NCBI RefSeq assembly: GCF_001854805.1
Contig: NZ_MBLO01000234.1
Span: forward strand, 1-64,000
DNA: 64,000 bases
Reading direction: 5' to 3'
DNA from: Pseudofrankia coriaricola
GTDB lineage: Bacteria > Actinomycetota > Actinomycetes > Frankiales > Frankiaceae
The notes beneath the pieces are model-generated. The model made no database searches. It saw only the letters and a list, made by a program, of their open reading frames with translations, and was not told the origin of the DNA. How positions within the stretch are numbered: position 1 is the first letter of the stretch; every line of letters begins with the position of its first letter. Positions 21,859 through 28,512 of this stretch are shown piece after piece. Made by a program: the position numbers and the translations under genes.

Positions 21859-22137
21859 ATGGGGGATGGTGTGGGAATTGACCTGGTGGGAACGGCTCGC
21901 CCAGGAATAGATATCGCCGGGCTGGCGGCGGAGCAGGCCGAGCTGCTGCCCGAACGCATGACGCTGGCGGCGATCGAGTACAACCGGCAGGAGTTCGACC
22001 CGCAGAACTACGCGGTCAACTCGCCGGGTAGTAACAACGCCGCTCTCGACAACCACGCGGAGTCGCAGACGGTCAATGGCAATGGTTCGCTCATCCAGTC
22101 GATCGTCAACAGCCAGAGCTTCATCGACAAGTGGTAA
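21859..22137 (+). CDS. Small peptide A, RiPP-precursor-like (92 aa)
   Basis: The ATG at 21859 follows GGGAACGAG. Residues 28-75 carry a block shared with the next small gene: ELLPERMTLAAIEYNRQEFD, then PQNY..NSPGSNNAALDNHAESQ.VNG. The C-terminus (SLIQSIVNSQSFIDKW) is unrelated to its paralogue. There is no signal peptide or membrane span, and the peptide is Asn/Gln/Ser-rich. A conserved leader-like part plus a variable tail, next to a PqqD-like/M50 protease, is the arrangement of a ribosomally made, processed peptide. The role is inferred; no known RiPP class is recognised. Confidence 0.65.
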   Translation: MGDGVGIDLVGTARPGIDIAGLAAEQAELLPERMTLAAIEYNRQEFDPQNYAVNSPGSNNAALDNHAESQTVNGNGSLIQSIVNSQSFIDKW

Positions 22138-22441
22138 CCATCGGGCGGGCGGAACCGCGGCGGGCGCAGGCTTCCTCCGTCTGTCGCTCCGCCCGCTCGA
22201 GCCGCTTTTCCAGCCGTCGTCGGCCGCGTTTCCCGACATTCTTCGAGGGATCCCCGAGTCGTGGACCGGGCGGGCTGAATTCGTCCGCCGGCCGGCCGGA
22301 TCTTTCGTTCCAGGGCTGCGCATCGAATGGGACCGACGTTTTTTCTGGCCGCGGCGACGCCCCCGCGGAAATACTCTGAGCCGCCTCCCAGTACGGCTAG
22401 CATCCACGCTGAAAGAGGTCGTGGAAGCACCGAACTGGGAG
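22138..22441. other. Spacer between the two peptide genes
   Basis: This 304-bp stretch is open in one frame into peptide B, but codon bias is poor and there is no internal ribosome site. It contains a T-rich run (gttttttct near 22335), unusual in this genome and possibly part of a promoter. No hairpin terminator was found. Confidence 0.35.
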
Positions 22442-22801
22442 ATGGAAAATGAGCGACGCCAGCGCGAAGTGACGGGACGAGCGACCGGAACTGTCCAGGA
22501 AATGGTGGAGCTCCTTCCTGATCGGACCACCCTGGCAGCGGTCGAGATCGGCCGGAAGGAGTTCGACCCCACTAACTTCCCGGTCGGCTCTCCGTGGTCG
22601 AGCAACGGGGCGATCGACGCCCATGCAGAATCACAGGTCAATGGCGGCTTCATGCCGATCGTGCTCACGCTGGCACCGAGTATCAACATCATAGTCCAGA
22701 AGTCAGACCTCGACTTTCTCGACTTTCTCGGCTTTGGGCACCACGCCGACGATGGGTCGACGGCCGACCCAAAGGTCGGCGATGGGCTCGACAAGGGCTA
22801 G
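22442..22801 (+). CDS. Small peptide B, paralogue of peptide A (119 aa)
   Basis: The ATG at 22442 places the shared block at the same distance from the N-terminus as in peptide A; GTG 22421 is an alternative with GAAAGAGG close by. The block reads VELLPDRTTLAAVEIGRKEF, DPTN...GSPWSSNGAIDAHAES, then QVNGG, roughly 60% identical to peptide A over 48 positions. The tail is longer and hydrophobic (FMPIVLTLAPSINIIVQKSD, LDFLDFLGFGHH) and ends in an acidic Asp/Gly-rich segment. Duplication followed by tail divergence suggests a common leader with distinct cores. The M50 gene starts 241 bases downstream. Confidence 0.65.
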   Translation: MENERRQREVTGRATGTVQEMVELLPDRTTLAAVEIGRKEFDPTNFPVGSPWSSNGAIDAHAESQVNGGFMPIVLTLAPSINIIVQKSDLDFLDFLGFGHHADDGSTADPKVGDGLDKG

Positions 22802-23042
22802 GGCCGCCGCGGGCCGGCGTCGAGCCCGCCGCGGCATGGATGTGCCGGGTGGATGCGCCAGTCCCATGTGGATCGGCGCGATGATCCAGGATCTTGGCGG
22901 CCTGACGCCGAGGCGGCATGCCAGCCAGGTGCGGCGCACGCGGTACGCCTGCCCTCGGCGGGGCGGCCGGCTCTGCGGGGCGGCTGGCCAGGTGGATCGA
23001 TGAGGCCCCCGAGAGGAGGCGCCGAAAGGGAGGGGACGTTCG

Positions 23043-24692
23043 ATGACGGAGCCCGCGTGGCCAGTGCGGACGCAGGCCCCTCAGGCCCCCGCCCCTAGTC
23101 CCATCCAGTTGCCGGACGATACCGGGGCGCCCGGCCGCGTCGCGTTGGCCCGCGTTGAGCCACGTGGTGCTGGGCCGGGCGCCGTCGAGCCGAGTGGCGT
23201 CGAGCTGCCCGTCCGCCCCAGCCGGGCTGACGGCTTGGCGTTGCTCGGCGAGTTCGCCGGGTCGGGTTTGGCGCGTCCTGTCTTTTTGGCGCGTCGTGCT
23301 GATGGTCAGGTCGCGGCACTCACCGAGCTGCTTGCGGGGATCGTCGAGGCCGCGGACGGTACCCGCGATGTCGCCGCGATCGCTGACTACGTCGGGCGGC
23401 GCTGCGGCCGCGTGGTGAGCGGCGCCGACGTCGTATATCTGTTGACTCATCAGCTCATGCCGCTCGGCCTGATCGCTGCCCCGACTGGTGTGACGCCGGC
23501 GCCGCGGGCGGGGTCGCTGTTCACGCTCGCTGGTCGGCGTACTCTGCTGCCCGCGTCGGTCGTGCACCGGGTCAGCGGGGTGTTCGCGGTGTTCTTCCGG
23601 CCAGTGGTCGTGGCTGTGTTGCTGGCTGTGTTGCTGGCCGCCGATGTCTGGTTGTTTGGTCGGCACAGCGTGCGGGACAGCGCCGCGATGGTGCTGGCCA
23701 CTCCGTCGATGATCCTGGTGCTGGTGGGCGTCACGCTCGTCGGTGCGCTGGTTCATGAGTGTGGTCATGCGGCGGCCTGCCGTTACGGCGGCGCGCGGCC
23801 GGGGGTGATCGGTGTCGGTATGTATCTCGTCTGGCCGGCCTTCTTCACTGATGTCACTGACTCCTATCGGTTGAGCCGTTGGGGGCGGCTGCGCACCGAC
23901 CTGGGGGGGATCTACTTCAATGGGCTGTTCGCGCTGCTGGTGATCGGGACCTTTGCTTTCACCCGGGCCGAGGTGTTGGTGACGGCGGTGGTCCTCGTCC
24001 ACGTGGACGCGTTGCGGCAGCTCGCGCCGTTCGTCCGGTTTGACGGCTACTACATTGTCAGTGATCTCGTTGGGGTGCCGGACCTGTTCAGTCGCATGGG
24101 TCCGGCTGTGCGGTCGGCCGGGCGTGCGGCGGCGCTGGTGTTCCCGTCTCGGCGGCGGGCTCGGGTGGACGCGGGATCGGCGCTGGATCCGCGGCTGGCC
24201 GGGTTGACCCGGCGGGCCCGGCTCATGGTGACCGCGTGGGCGCTGTGCGCCGCGCCGATGCTTGCCGTGAACATCGTCATGTTGGTGGTCTACGCGCCTT
24301 TCGTGCTGCCCCGGACGGCCGTGGCGGTGCGCGACCAGTTCGGCCGGGCGAGTCGGGCCCTGGCTGGCGGGGAACTGGTCACGGCGCTCGCTGGGGCCGT
24401 CGGCATGGTGCTGGTCGCGTTGCCGGCGGCCGGGATGATCTATGTGCTTGTCCGGCTCGGCCGGTGGGCGGTGCGGGTGGCGCGGGCGCTTCGGACGAGG
24501 CGGCGGCGCCCTGGGGGCGGGCAGCCGGGCCGCGGCGTCGCGCCCGCCGTGGCCCGCGGCGCGTGCTGTGCCGCGCCGTCCTCGTCGGGACCGCTCCCGC
24601 CGGGACCGCTCTCGCCGGAGGTGTCCTCGCCAGGGCGGTCGGCGGCGGATGGTTCGGCGCCCTCCCGTGACAGGGCGGGGGAGCCACGATGA
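23043..24692 (+). CDS. PqqD-like domain fused to M50-type membrane zinc metalloprotease
   Basis: The ATG at 23043 has GGGAGGGG seven bases upstream. Residues 1-60 are disordered. Residues 80-145 (LTELLAGIVEAADGTRDVAA, IADYVGRR...LMPLGLI) resemble the winged-helix PqqD/RiPP-recognition fold that captures leader peptides. Residues 180-470 hold about six membrane spans with the zinc motif HECGH (238-242) and the partner motif FDGYY (333-337), as in M50/S2P-type peptide metalloproteases. It would cut or export a peptide at the membrane. Two small paralogous peptide genes lie upstream, and its TGA overlaps the pstS ATG (ATGA), so protease and transporter are translationally coupled. The C-terminal 80 residues are Pro/Ser-rich. 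Confidence 0.85.
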   Translation: MTEPAWPVRTQAPQAPAPSPIQLPDDTGAPGRVALARVEPRGAGPGAVEPSGVELPVRPSRADGLALLGEFAGSGLARPVFLARRADGQVAALTELLAGIVEAADGTRDVAAIADYVGRRCGRVVSGADVVYLLTHQLMPLGLIAAPTGVTPAPRAGSLFTLAGRRTLLPASVVHRVSGVFAVFFRPVVVAVLLAVLLAADVWLFGRHSVRDSAAMVLATPSMILVLVGVTLVGALVHECGHAAACRYGGARPGVIGVGMYLVWPAFFTDVTDSYRLSRWGRLRTDLGGIYFNGLFALLVIGTFAFTRAEVLVTAVVLVHVDALRQLAPFVRFDGYYIVSDLVGVPDLFSRMGPAVRSAGRAAALVFPSRRRARVDAGSALDPRLAGLTRRARLMVTAWALCAAPMLAVNIVMLVVYAPFVLPRTAVAVRDQFGRASRALAGGELVTALAGAVGMVLVALPAAGMIYVLVRLGRWAVRVARALRTRRRRPGGGQPGRGVAPAVARGACCAAPSSSGPLPPGPLSPEVSSPGRSAADGSAPSRDRAGEPR

Positions 24693-25696
24693 TCCTGCTC
24701 CCGGGTCGGCCGGCGGGGCGGTCCCGCGCGAGTAGCCAGTCCCGCCTGAGCACGGCTGTCGTCGCGGTCGTCGTCACCGCCGTGTCGACCGGCGGCGGGT
24801 GCGGTGGGTCGGGTCAGACCGCCAAGAGCATCGGCATCGACGGCTCCAGCACGGTCGCGCCGCTGACCGAGGCGGCGGCCGACCTCTTCCGCGAGCACAA
24901 CCCGGGCATCCAGATCACGGTTGGGACCTCTGGCACCGGAGGAGGGTTCGAGAAGTTCTGCCGGGGCGAGACCGACATCTCCGACGCGTCCAGGTCGATC
25001 ACGCAGGCGGAGCGGGAGGCCTGCACGCGCGCCGGCATCGACTACGTCGACTTCCAGGTGGCGAACGACGCGGTCACGGTCATCGTGAACAAGGAGAACG
25101 CCTGGGCGACGTGCCTCACGGCCGCGCAGCTGCGGCGGATCTGGGACGTGCGCTCGCCGATCGAGAACTGGAACCAGGTCGACCCGAAGTTTCCGGACGA
25201 ACCGCTGCTGCTCTTCGGCCCGGGCACCGACTCCGGCACGTTCGACTACTTCACGAGCGCGATCAACGGCAAGGGTGGCAGGAGCCGCACGGACTACCAG
25301 GCATCCGAGGACGACAACGTGATCATCGCCGGGGTGGAGGGCAGCCGGGGCGGGCTCGGGTACATCGGGTACGGCTACTTCGAGGAGAACACCGATCGGC
25401 TGAGAGCTCTCGCGGTCGACGACGGAGACGGATGCGTGGCGCCGAGCGTCGGGTCCGTGCAGGACGGCAGCTACCGGCCACTGGCGCGGCCCCTGTTCAT
25501 CTACGTCAAAAGGACGTCGCTCGCGCGGCCGGCGCTCGTCGACTTCGTGGACTACTACGTCGAGAACTCGACCGCGATCGCGCGACAGGCGCTGTTCATC
25601 CCGCTGACGTCGGCGCAGGTCGCCGTCAACCAGAAGGCCCTCGCCGACGTGGTCGCGTCGGGCCGGCCGTCCACACCGGCACCGGGGCGGTCCTGA
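24689..25696 (+). CDS. pstS: Phosphate ABC transporter substrate-binding lipoprotein PstS
   Basis: The 335-aa protein has a basic N-terminus, a hydrophobic helix (LSTAVVAVVVTAVSTGGG) and a Cys (GGGCGG) that may be lipid-modified. The mature domain shows PstS motifs: IDGSSTVAPLTEAAADLF, VGTSGTGGGFEKFCRGETDI, SDASRSI, GPGTDSGTFDYFT and GYIGYGYFEEN, which cradle phosphate. It starts inside the M50 gene stop (ATGA overlap), an unusual position for pstS. PstC, PstA and PstB follow with 1-bp or overlapping junctions, so the operon runs protease-pstSCAB. No phoU is present. A ligand other than phosphate is possible in this setting. Confidence 0.9.
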   Translation: MILLPGRPAGRSRASSQSRLSTAVVAVVVTAVSTGGGCGGSGQTAKSIGIDGSSTVAPLTEAAADLFREHNPGIQITVGTSGTGGGFEKFCRGETDISDASRSITQAEREACTRAGIDYVDFQVANDAVTVIVNKENAWATCLTAAQLRRIWDVRSPIENWNQVDPKFPDEPLLLFGPGTDSGTFDYFTSAINGKGGRSRTDYQASEDDNVIIAGVEGSRGGLGYIGYGYFEENTDRLRALAVDDGDGCVAPSVGSVQDGSYRPLARPLFIYVKRTSLARPALVDFVDYYVENSTAIARQALFIPLTSAQVAVNQKALADVVASGRPSTPAPGRS

Positions 25697-25697
25697 C

Positions 25698-26645
25698 ATG
25701 GCCGCGGACCCGCACGACTTCGACGTCTCCATGGCGACCGGGATCGGCTGGTCCTCCCGGCGGCTGCGGGAGGGACTGGTCCGGCGGGTGCTGATGGCGG
25801 CGGCGCTGCTGTCGGTGGCCACCACCATCGGGATCGTGGTGGCGCTGGCCGTGCCCACGGTGCAGTTCTTCACCCGGGTCAGCCCGGTCGAGTTCCTGAC
25901 CGGCACGGAGTGGACACCGCTGTTCGCGAGCCCTCATTTCGGGGTGCTGCCGCTGGTCACCGCCACCGCGGTCACCACGTTCTGGGCGCTGCTCGTGGCG
26001 CTTCCGTTGGGCCTGGGCTGCGCCGCCTACCTGTCCGAGTACGCCGGCCGGCGGACCCGGAAGATCTTCAAGCCGCTGTTGGAGATCCTTGCCGGGGTTC
26101 CGACGGTCGTGTACGGATTCTTCGCGTTGACATTCCTCACCCCGTTGCTGCGCGACATCTGGATCCTGCCCGGCAAGGGCCCGCAGATCTACAACGCGCT
26201 CTCGGCCGGGCTCGTGATGGGAATCATGATCATTCCGACCGTCGCGTCGTTGTCCGAGGACGCGATGAGCGCGGTGCCCGACGACCTGCGCGCGGGAGCG
26301 CGGGCGCTGGGCAGCACCGCGCGGCAGGTCACCACGCGGGTCACGATCCCGGCCGCGCTGTCCGGCATCATCGCGGCGACCATGCTGGCGGTGTCGCGGG
26401 CGGTCGGCGAGACCATGATCGTCGCCGTGGCGGCGGGCGGTACGGCCAACCTCAGTCTCGACCCGACCGAGCCGATGCAGACCATGACCGCGTTCATCGC
26501 GGCGGCCGCGCTGGGCGACCAGCCGACCGGCAGTATCGGCTACCAGACGCTCTTCGCGGTCGGATCACTGCTTTTCGTCATCACCTTGATCATGAACATC
26601 GTGAGTATCCGGCTGGTGCGCCGGTACCGGGAGGTGTACGAATGA
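25698..26645 (+). CDS. pstC: Phosphate ABC transporter permease PstC
   Basis: This 315-aa permease has six membrane spans and an MetI-like fold. The cytoplasmic coupling segment is ARALGSTARQVTTRVTIPAA, and VSRAVGETMIVAVAAGGTAN is the typical PstC signature. A periplasmic loop (SPVEFLTGTEWTPLFASPHF) separates the first two spans, as in other PstC proteins. It pairs with PstA in the membrane to form the channel for the PstS ligand. The start lies one base after the pstS stop, and its TGA overlaps the pstA ATG. Confidence 0.93.
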   Translation: MAADPHDFDVSMATGIGWSSRRLREGLVRRVLMAAALLSVATTIGIVVALAVPTVQFFTRVSPVEFLTGTEWTPLFASPHFGVLPLVTATAVTTFWALLVALPLGLGCAAYLSEYAGRRTRKIFKPLLEILAGVPTVVYGFFALTFLTPLLRDIWILPGKGPQIYNALSAGLVMGIMIIPTVASLSEDAMSAVPDDLRAGARALGSTARQVTTRVTIPAALSGIIAATMLAVSRAVGETMIVAVAAGGTANLSLDPTEPMQTMTAFIAAAALGDQPTGSIGYQTLFAVGSLLFVITLIMNIVSIRLVRRYREVYE

Positions 26646-27538
26646 CCGCGGAAGTCGAACCCCCTGGGCGGTCGGTCGAATACCAGATCGAGACCGTCCG
26701 CGGATCGATCCGCGATGCGACGTTCCGGCTGGCCATGTTCTTCAGCATCGGTGTCGCCATCGCCGCACTGGGCACCCTGCTCGTGCAGGTCTTCGTCGAC
26801 GCCCTGCCCCGGCTCAACCTGGACCTGCTGACCCAGTTCCCGGCCAGCCTGCCGGCGCTGGCCGGCGCGCGGTCCGCGATCATCGGATCGATCTGGGTGA
26901 TCGGGGCCACCGCGCTGTTCACGATCCCGCTCGGCGTGGCTGCGGCCATCTACATGGAGGTGTTCGCCGACCCGCGGCGCTGGTACAACCGGATGATCGA
27001 GGTCAACATCCAGAACCTCGCGGCGGTGCCGTCGATCGTCTACGGCATCCTCGGGCTGGGCCTGCTCGCGCGGGCGGCGCATCTCGGGCAGACCGTGCTC
27101 ACCGCCGCCCTGACGCTCACCCTGCTGGTCCTGCCCGTCGTCATCATCGTGTCGAGGGAGGCGATGCGGGCCATCCCCAGCTCCATCCGGGACGCCTCCC
27201 TCGCGCTCGGCGCGACCGAGCAGCAGACGGTGTGGCGCCATACGTTGCCGTTGGCTGTCCCGGGGATCGCCACCGGGATCATCCTCGCGTTGTCCCGGGC
27301 GATCGGTGAGGCGGCGCCGCTGCTGCTTCTCGGCGGCCTGGCCTACGTCACGTTCACCCCGACCGGCCTGGACAGCAGGTTCACCGTTCTGCCGATCCAG
27401 ATCTTCAACTGGGTCTCCCGCCCGCAGGAGGAGTTCAGGACCCTGGCCGCGGCGGCGATCGTGGTGCTGCTCGCGCTGCTGCTGGTGATGAACAGCATCG
27501 CCATCCTGATCCGGAACCACTACCGGCGGACCTGGTGA
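26642..27538 (+). CDS. pstA: Phosphate ABC transporter permease PstA
   Basis: The 298-aa permease begins at ATG 26642, which overlaps the pstC stop (ATGA). It has six spans and the coupling segment [40 protein letters not shown] is the PstA form of the conserved loop. [20 protein letters not shown] matches the PstA signature near span three. It forms the channel with PstC. Its final codons overlap the pstB GTG (GTGA), continuing the tight coupling of this operon. Confidence 0.93.
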
Positions 27539-28512
27539 ACGCGCCGCCTCGAACCCGACCTCATCCCCCCATGCGCTTGCTGAGGACGTCGACCGTGTCC
27601 GATGCAGATGAACCGATGGCGGATCCCTCGCACGAGCTCGCCGACCAGGACCGGCCGGCCGCGGCGGAGGCGCCCCCCCTGGCGGGGAGAATCCCGCGAG
27701 CGACTGGCCGCACGGTGCCGGACGCGCCGGAGGAGATCGTCATCAATGTCGCCGACGTGGCCATCTACTACGGCAGTTTCTGCGCGGTCGGTGGCCTGAC
27801 CGTACAGTTCGGCCGGCGGGAGATCACGGCGCTGATCGGGCCGTCCGGCTGTGGCAAGAGCACGGCGCTGCGTGCCTTCAACCGGATGAACGATCTCATC
27901 CCGGGAGCCCGTCTCACCGGCTCGGTCAGCTACCGCGGTCAGGATCTCTACGGGCCGCGGGTCGACCCGATCACTGTTCGCCGCCGGATCGGGATGGTGT
28001 TCCAGAAGCCGAACCCGTTCCCGAAATCGATCTACGACAACGTCGCCTACGGCCCGCGGGTGACCGGCATGAAGGTGCCGAACATGGACGACGTGGTCGA
28101 GGAGGCGCTCACCAGCGCCGCACTCTGGGACGAGGTGAAGGACAAACTCCGCCAGCACGCGTTCGGCCTGTCCGGGGGGCAGCAGCAGCGGCTCTGCATC
28201 GCCCGGACCATCGCGGTGCGGCCCGACGTCGTCCTCATGGACGAGCCGTGCTCAGCCCTCGACCCGATCTCCACCGCCAAGATCGAGTACATGATGACTG
28301 AGCTGGCCGACGAGTACACCATCATCATCGTCACGCACAACATGCAGCAGGCGGCCCGGATCTCCGACCGAACCGCGTTCTTCACCACCGAGGTCGACGA
28401 CGCGACCGGCCGGCGCTCGGGTCTGATGGTGGAGTTTGACCGGACGGCGAAGATCTTCAGCACGCCATCCGATCAGCGGACGGAGGACTATATCTCCGGC
28501 AAGTTCGGCTGA
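27535..28512 (+). CDS. pstB: Phosphate ABC transporter ATP-binding protein PstB
   Basis: PstB powers uptake by hydrolysing ATP on the inner face of the membrane. Motifs are Walker [11 protein letters not shown]-loop [20 protein letters not shown], signature [16 protein letters not shown], Walker [14 protein letters not shown] and the switch histidine in [11 protein letters not shown]. At 325 aa from GTG 27535 (overlapping the pstA stop) it carries a 65-residue N-terminal extension. GTG 27595, with GAGGA upstream, would give a form nearer the usual 260-300 aa. The C-terminus (EDYISGKFG) is typical of PstB. Confidence 0.93.

Follow-up and report, generated by a model that had tools for sequence, protein, structure and literature searches.

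Does a bacterial locus that encodes small leader-bearing peptides beside a membrane protease, and no peptide-modifying enzyme, represent a way to mature and release peptides? The question is raised by a stretch of 64,000 nucleotides from Pseudofrankia coriaricola (contig NZ_MBLO01000234.1, positions 1 to 64,000; hereafter the window), in which two small genes, pep1 and pep2, precede a gene for a protein that combines an RRE-like (PqqD-type) domain with an M50 protease. A first-pass annotation, made from the sequence alone, had described two paralogous peptides with a common N-terminal block and unrelated tails, followed by a PqqD-like/M50 protein, and had proposed a processed, RiPP-type system with a shared leader and variable cores, of no described class that it recognised. 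The observation itself is confirmed by our analysis. The interpretation is only partly supported: the shared leader block, the predicted RRE-like domain fused to an M50 protease, a near-perfect co-occurrence and the absence of a fitting described family all hold, whereas variable cores and post-translational modification find no support. The features are collected below.

Features of the locus within the window
Coordinates	Strand	Feature	Details and basis
21859..22137	+	pep1, precursor peptide 1 (92 aa)	Leader with ELLPER; hydrophilic tail ending ...SIVNSQSFIDKW; orthologues in Pseudofrankia and Frankia
22130..22210		Long GC-rich RNA hairpin following the pep1 stop	201-nt fold, z -2.5; 3 of 200 shuffles as stable
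22442..22801	+	pep2, precursor peptide 2 (119 aa from ATG 22442)	Leader with ELLPDR; hydrophobic strand GGFMPIVLTLAPSINIIVQ; acidic end; orthologues in Pseudofrankia and Frankia
22442..22475		Start region of pep2	Start used by paralogues (ATG 22449, MSDASAK) runs into a stop here; intact frame opens at ATG 22442
23043..24692	+	RRE-like domain fused to M50 intramembrane protease (549 aa)	Sub-threshold family matches, conservation and AlphaFold2 model
23217..23477	+	RRE-like (PqqD-type) winged-helix domain, predicted, residues 59-145	AlphaFold2; structural alignment to RRE/PqqD structures; PqqD (3g2b) best PDB sequence hit, E 0.023
23754..23768	+	HECGH, M50 zinc-site motif, residues 238-242	HExGH invariant in an alignment of relatives
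24042..24053	+	DGYY, second M50 motif, residues 334-337	DGY invariant in an alignment of relatives
24689..28512		PstSCAB phosphate transporter set	Starts inside the M50 stop codon (ATGA overlap), at this locus only

The two peptides align over 70 residues at 47% identity (E=3e-21 for the single comparison), and their tails differ as the annotation had stated. The N-terminus of pep2 in the window differs from that of its relatives, owing to its different start. The hairpin after pep1 could set the ratio of pep1 to pep2, while a promoter scan of the region found nothing.

We next asked what the large protein might be. AlphaFold2 models its residues 66-138, alone and in the whole protein, as three strands followed by three helices with high confidence. 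Structural matches obtained with VIA-align cover the whole domain: TbiB1 in complex with lasso leaders (Z 8.6), the RRE region of MibB (8.5), PqqD (7.8), a cyanobactin heterocyclase (7.3) and PbtF (6.3). However, C-terminal domains of PKMT-type methyltransferases score as high, so that the fold is predicted to be RRE-like but leader binding is inferred. Foldseek alone gave no significant match for this domain, and the sequence hit to PqqD is marginal. A predicted winged helix was nonetheless found, and its absence was one of the outcomes that the annotation had named as refuting its view. The rest of the protein is helical. The two motifs expected of an M50 site-2 protease, HExxH and a distal DG motif in membrane helices, are present, HECGH lying inside helix 221-248 of the model, and are nearly invariant in an alignment of 32 relatives. 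The M50 part scores 16.6 bits against Pfam PF02163, below the gathering score of 27.2, and the whole model has no significant Foldseek match to a solved structure.

In Pseudofrankia and Frankia (genus assignments of the relatives are inferences), pep1 and pep2 orthologues precede the M50 gene, whereas Protofrankia has a single peptide with the same leader and an unrelated glycine-rich core. In these three genera the peptides and the protease occur together and are missing together. Among the 35 genomes of the order, 18 have peptides and all 18 have M50; three more have M50 hits, of which one (G023) has a large, different leader peptide and two (G025 and G026) have only weak, distant matches. 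The window genome has a second full copy of the set on another of its contigs. Lone pep1-like genes also exist away from M50, but in three genomes that have a full set elsewhere (loci L043, L046 and L048). Peptides occurring mostly without the protease would have contradicted the annotation, and this was not observed. The tails, in contrast, contradict its variable cores, conserved tails being another of the outcomes that it had named as refuting its view: they differ between pep1 and pep2 but are well conserved within each orthologous set (in Frankia, pep1 ...ESIVNSWxQVNQW and pep2 ...GGILPILISLVPSINIIFQ). Codon changes between the window pep1 and its nearest orthologue fall 18/12/25 on positions 1/2/3 (15 synonymous, 24 not), which is mild evidence for selection on the protein. 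In one relative (locus L040, 5268-6263, minus strand) the acidic tail of pep2 is expanded into many repeats (DRYVGDRYAGD...), while the hydrophobic strand is kept.

Is any other gene part of the system? Neighbours in the window are a P-type ATPase, PstSCAB, a nitroreductase, an S58 peptidase, TerD and TelA. PstSCAB was rejected as a component since it adjoins M50 only in the window; in L040 and another relative (L110) the nitroreductase follows M50 directly. The upstream P-type ATPase was not found at other loci at the threshold used. Few other ORFs are shared between loci of the three genera, and those are sporadic; a tblastn screen of neighbours with composition correction off was too noisy to be used. 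This bears on a first alternative, namely that the peptides belong to a true RiPP system and are modified by an enzyme encoded elsewhere before leader removal. The RRE-like domain, the leader/core layout and the presence of one to four precursors per locus are typical of RiPP clusters, and a ribosomal precursor with leader and core is supported by a leader shared across clades with different tails, leader removal being inferred. However, no modification enzyme is conserved near the loci, either across the three Frankiaceae genera or in the wider set described below, a result that covers the neighbourhoods and not whole genomes; we consider this reading unlikely.

A second alternative is a two-peptide bacteriocin or other antimicrobial, matured by the M50 protease, with the two tails acting jointly on membranes. 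The two co-conserved peptides with different tails, the hydrophobic strand of pep2, the glycine-rich hydrophobic core of Protofrankia and the antimicrobial served by the related epipeptide protease (PMC10885120) speak for it. Against it, the cores are conserved rather than diversified, no immunity or ABC export gene is a conserved neighbour, and Streptomyces cores are nearly identical between the two peptides. Conserved cores and the lack of conserved immunity and export genes make an arms-race bacteriocin less likely, although a paired antimicrobial role is not excluded.

To assess how widely the arrangement recurs, we scanned genome contigs with a profile of the M50 protein and found 249 relatives, in Actinobacteria and Chloroflexi, of which the 80 best were retrieved. 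Of these, 78 have one to four upstream peptides with a related leader: ELLPxR in Frankiaceae and in Streptomyces, Kitasatospora, Actinospica and Streptacidiphilus; the relaxed EELExQxGExLPxR in Chloroflexi, Rubrobacteraceae, Thermoleophilia, Acidimicrobiia and others. Seventy-three were counted by script and five (L129, L154, L165, L170 and L183) were read by eye from a looser listing. The two exceptions are L149, whose contig starts at M50, and L145, a true negative. An apparent lack of peptides in the sister M50 clade proved to be an artefact of the strict ELLPxR pattern, as the relaxed pattern found them. In a tree of the M50 proteins the strict-motif loci form one well-supported clade (SH-aLRT 99), although this was a quick tree with long branches. 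In 394 sampled genomes of the class, the 27 with confident peptide hits all lie within the 57 with M50, not counting two borderline peptide hits (E 0.006 and 0.0099). Profile comparisons support a common origin of the leaders: E 9e-7 for Frankiaceae against Streptomyces, 1e-8 for Streptomyces against the relaxed type and 1e-5 for Frankiaceae against the relaxed type. No peptide type matches a Pfam or NCBIfam model at threshold, and no paper in the literature searched contains the leader or core motifs tried. In some actinobacteria (L190, L191 and L192) the PqqD-M50 protein is fused at its C-terminus to a P-loop MinD/ParA-like ATPase (KGGVGKTT), beside one ELLPxR peptide.

A divergent XRE-like regulator adjoins the peptides in 50 loci of Streptomycetaceae, Actinospica and Streptosporangiaceae (for instance L124, 3950-4456, minus strand). 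Membrane M50 proteases release peptide pheromones in other bacteria, and the released peptides may thus be signals, sensed by a receptor or by this regulator. However, the regulator is absent from every Frankiaceae locus, and the cores are long and repeat-like for signals; a signalling role is not excluded but appears improbable. M50 proteases also often act in regulated intramembrane proteolysis, in which case the peptides would be membrane-bound regulators degraded by the protease rather than products. The hydrophobic stretch of pep2 would agree with this view. Yet pep1 and the Streptomyces-type peptides have no hydrophobic membrane segment by inspection, no sigma factor or anti-sigma domain is seen, and an RRE-like domain and multiple leader copies are not expected, which makes this the least likely of the alternatives.

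Outside Frankiaceae, most loci also carry a third gene. M50 is usually followed or flanked by a gene for a secreted protein with CxxC repeats: 44 of 52 loci in the Streptomyces-type clade, where seven of the eight misses end within 50 bases of M50, and 11 of 17 loci in the rest. This protein matches no Pfam or NCBIfam model at threshold. It is absent from all Frankiaceae loci retrieved, and a profile found it in none of the 35 Frankiales genomes but G023, though this profile was built from non-Streptomyces members and a divergent form could be missed. In G023, a Frankiaceae relative, the locus (L193, on contig C86) has a much longer, repetitive leader peptide and an M50 fused to the CxxC repeat domain. 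The 21-residue repeat of the secreted protein and the core of the peptides share ten positions in identical spacing: N, A/S, A, N, S/C, S/C, A/T, A, A and Q at offsets 0, 2, 4, 6, 9, 12, 14, 16, 18 and 20. All 18 proteins tested reach 9-10 matches, and none of 1000 shuffles each did so. Because the residue classes were chosen after seeing both families, we repeated the test with a model built from peptides alone, in which 7 of 10 proteins had at most 2 of 500 shuffles as high. An hhalign comparison gives E 6e-4 but only 29% probability. We read this as likely, not proven, common ancestry. Frankiaceae cores do not show the repeat, being no better than shuffles.

Taken together, our preferred explanation, to which we assign a probability of roughly 0.7, is a leader-guided peptide maturation module. 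In this view, the ELLPxR block of the precursors is held by the RRE-like domain, the M50 active site cuts the leader off, and the core is released on the outer face without the need for a modification enzyme; in Frankiaceae the two different, conserved cores would probably act as a pair. Precedents are the daptide protease MpaP and the epipeptide protease EpeP, described below. Our analysis shows the homology of the leaders, the co-occurrence, the prediction of an RRE-like fold, the M50 motifs and, outside Frankiaceae, the shared repeat spacing, whereas leader binding, cleavage, the side of release, assembly and the final function are inferred. Against the explanation count the score of the M50 part below Pfam's gathering threshold, the lack of a solved homologue of its model by Foldseek and the lone pep1-like genes away from M50. 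Extracellular assembly is our lead guess for function: the same design runs through Actinobacteria and Chloroflexi, where the core is one copy of the repeat also found in the neighbouring secreted protein, suggesting that the released peptides co-assemble with it at the cell surface. As Frankiaceae lack this partner and their cores are divergent, assembly is weakest for the window itself. More tentatively still, and rather unlikely on present evidence though not excluded, this may be an undescribed, widespread maturation and secretion route in Actinobacteria and Chloroflexi, in which an RRE-guided intramembrane protease recognises leaders, cuts them off and releases single-repeat subunits that assemble outside the cell with the CxxC protein, with no Sec signal, ABC exporter or modifying enzyme on the peptides, Frankiaceae carrying a stripped-down form with two distinct subunits.

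Leader-binding domains are known mainly as guides for peptide-modifying enzymes. Here the only constant partner is a membrane protease, and the peptides are conserved rather than diversified, which points to a physiological role. The family is large and has no protein family model; it offers a compact test of whether an intramembrane protease can act as a release device for unmodified peptides, as well as searchable signatures for finding more.

How does this system, real, conserved and apparently undescribed, compare with known ones? Its logic is known, but it comes without tailoring enzymes, and the nearest relatives are the daptide and epipeptide proteases. The daptide protease MpaP, an RRE-dependent intramembrane leader peptidase (PMC10036551; NCBIfam NF041824), is likewise an RRE-M50 fusion beside several short precursors (MpaA), and its leader motif ELExMEAP appears, by eye, to resemble the ELExExA of Streptomyces relatives. 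However, daptides need a C-terminal Thr and MpaB/C/D/M enzymes: none of the listed window or Frankiaceae peptides ends in Thr (they end in W, Q, G or other residues), no neighbour besides peptides and M50 is conserved in Frankiaceae, and the window protein scores 92.9 bits (81-112 bits for relatives) against a cut-off of 300. The epipeptide protease EpeP/YydH (NCBIfam NF058609, the YydH/LiaK family; PMC10885120) is an M50 protease thought to cleave and export a ribosomal peptide, EpeX. Epipeptides are modified by a radical SAM epimerase, none of which was found among conserved neighbours, and the match of the window protein, at 48.5 bits against a cut-off of 225, excludes the RRE-like part. 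The system is thus neither a daptide nor an epipeptide system, since defining features of both families fail. The pearlin proteases TglG/TmoG (PMC10885120) are membrane M50 proteases acting on a ribosomal scaffold peptide, but they release a single modified C-terminal residue, and nothing here suggests that. Finally, the lasso peptide RRE TbiB1 and PqqD have the same fold as that predicted for the N-terminal domain, yet they are stand-alone domains serving modifying enzymes and are not fused to an M50 protease.
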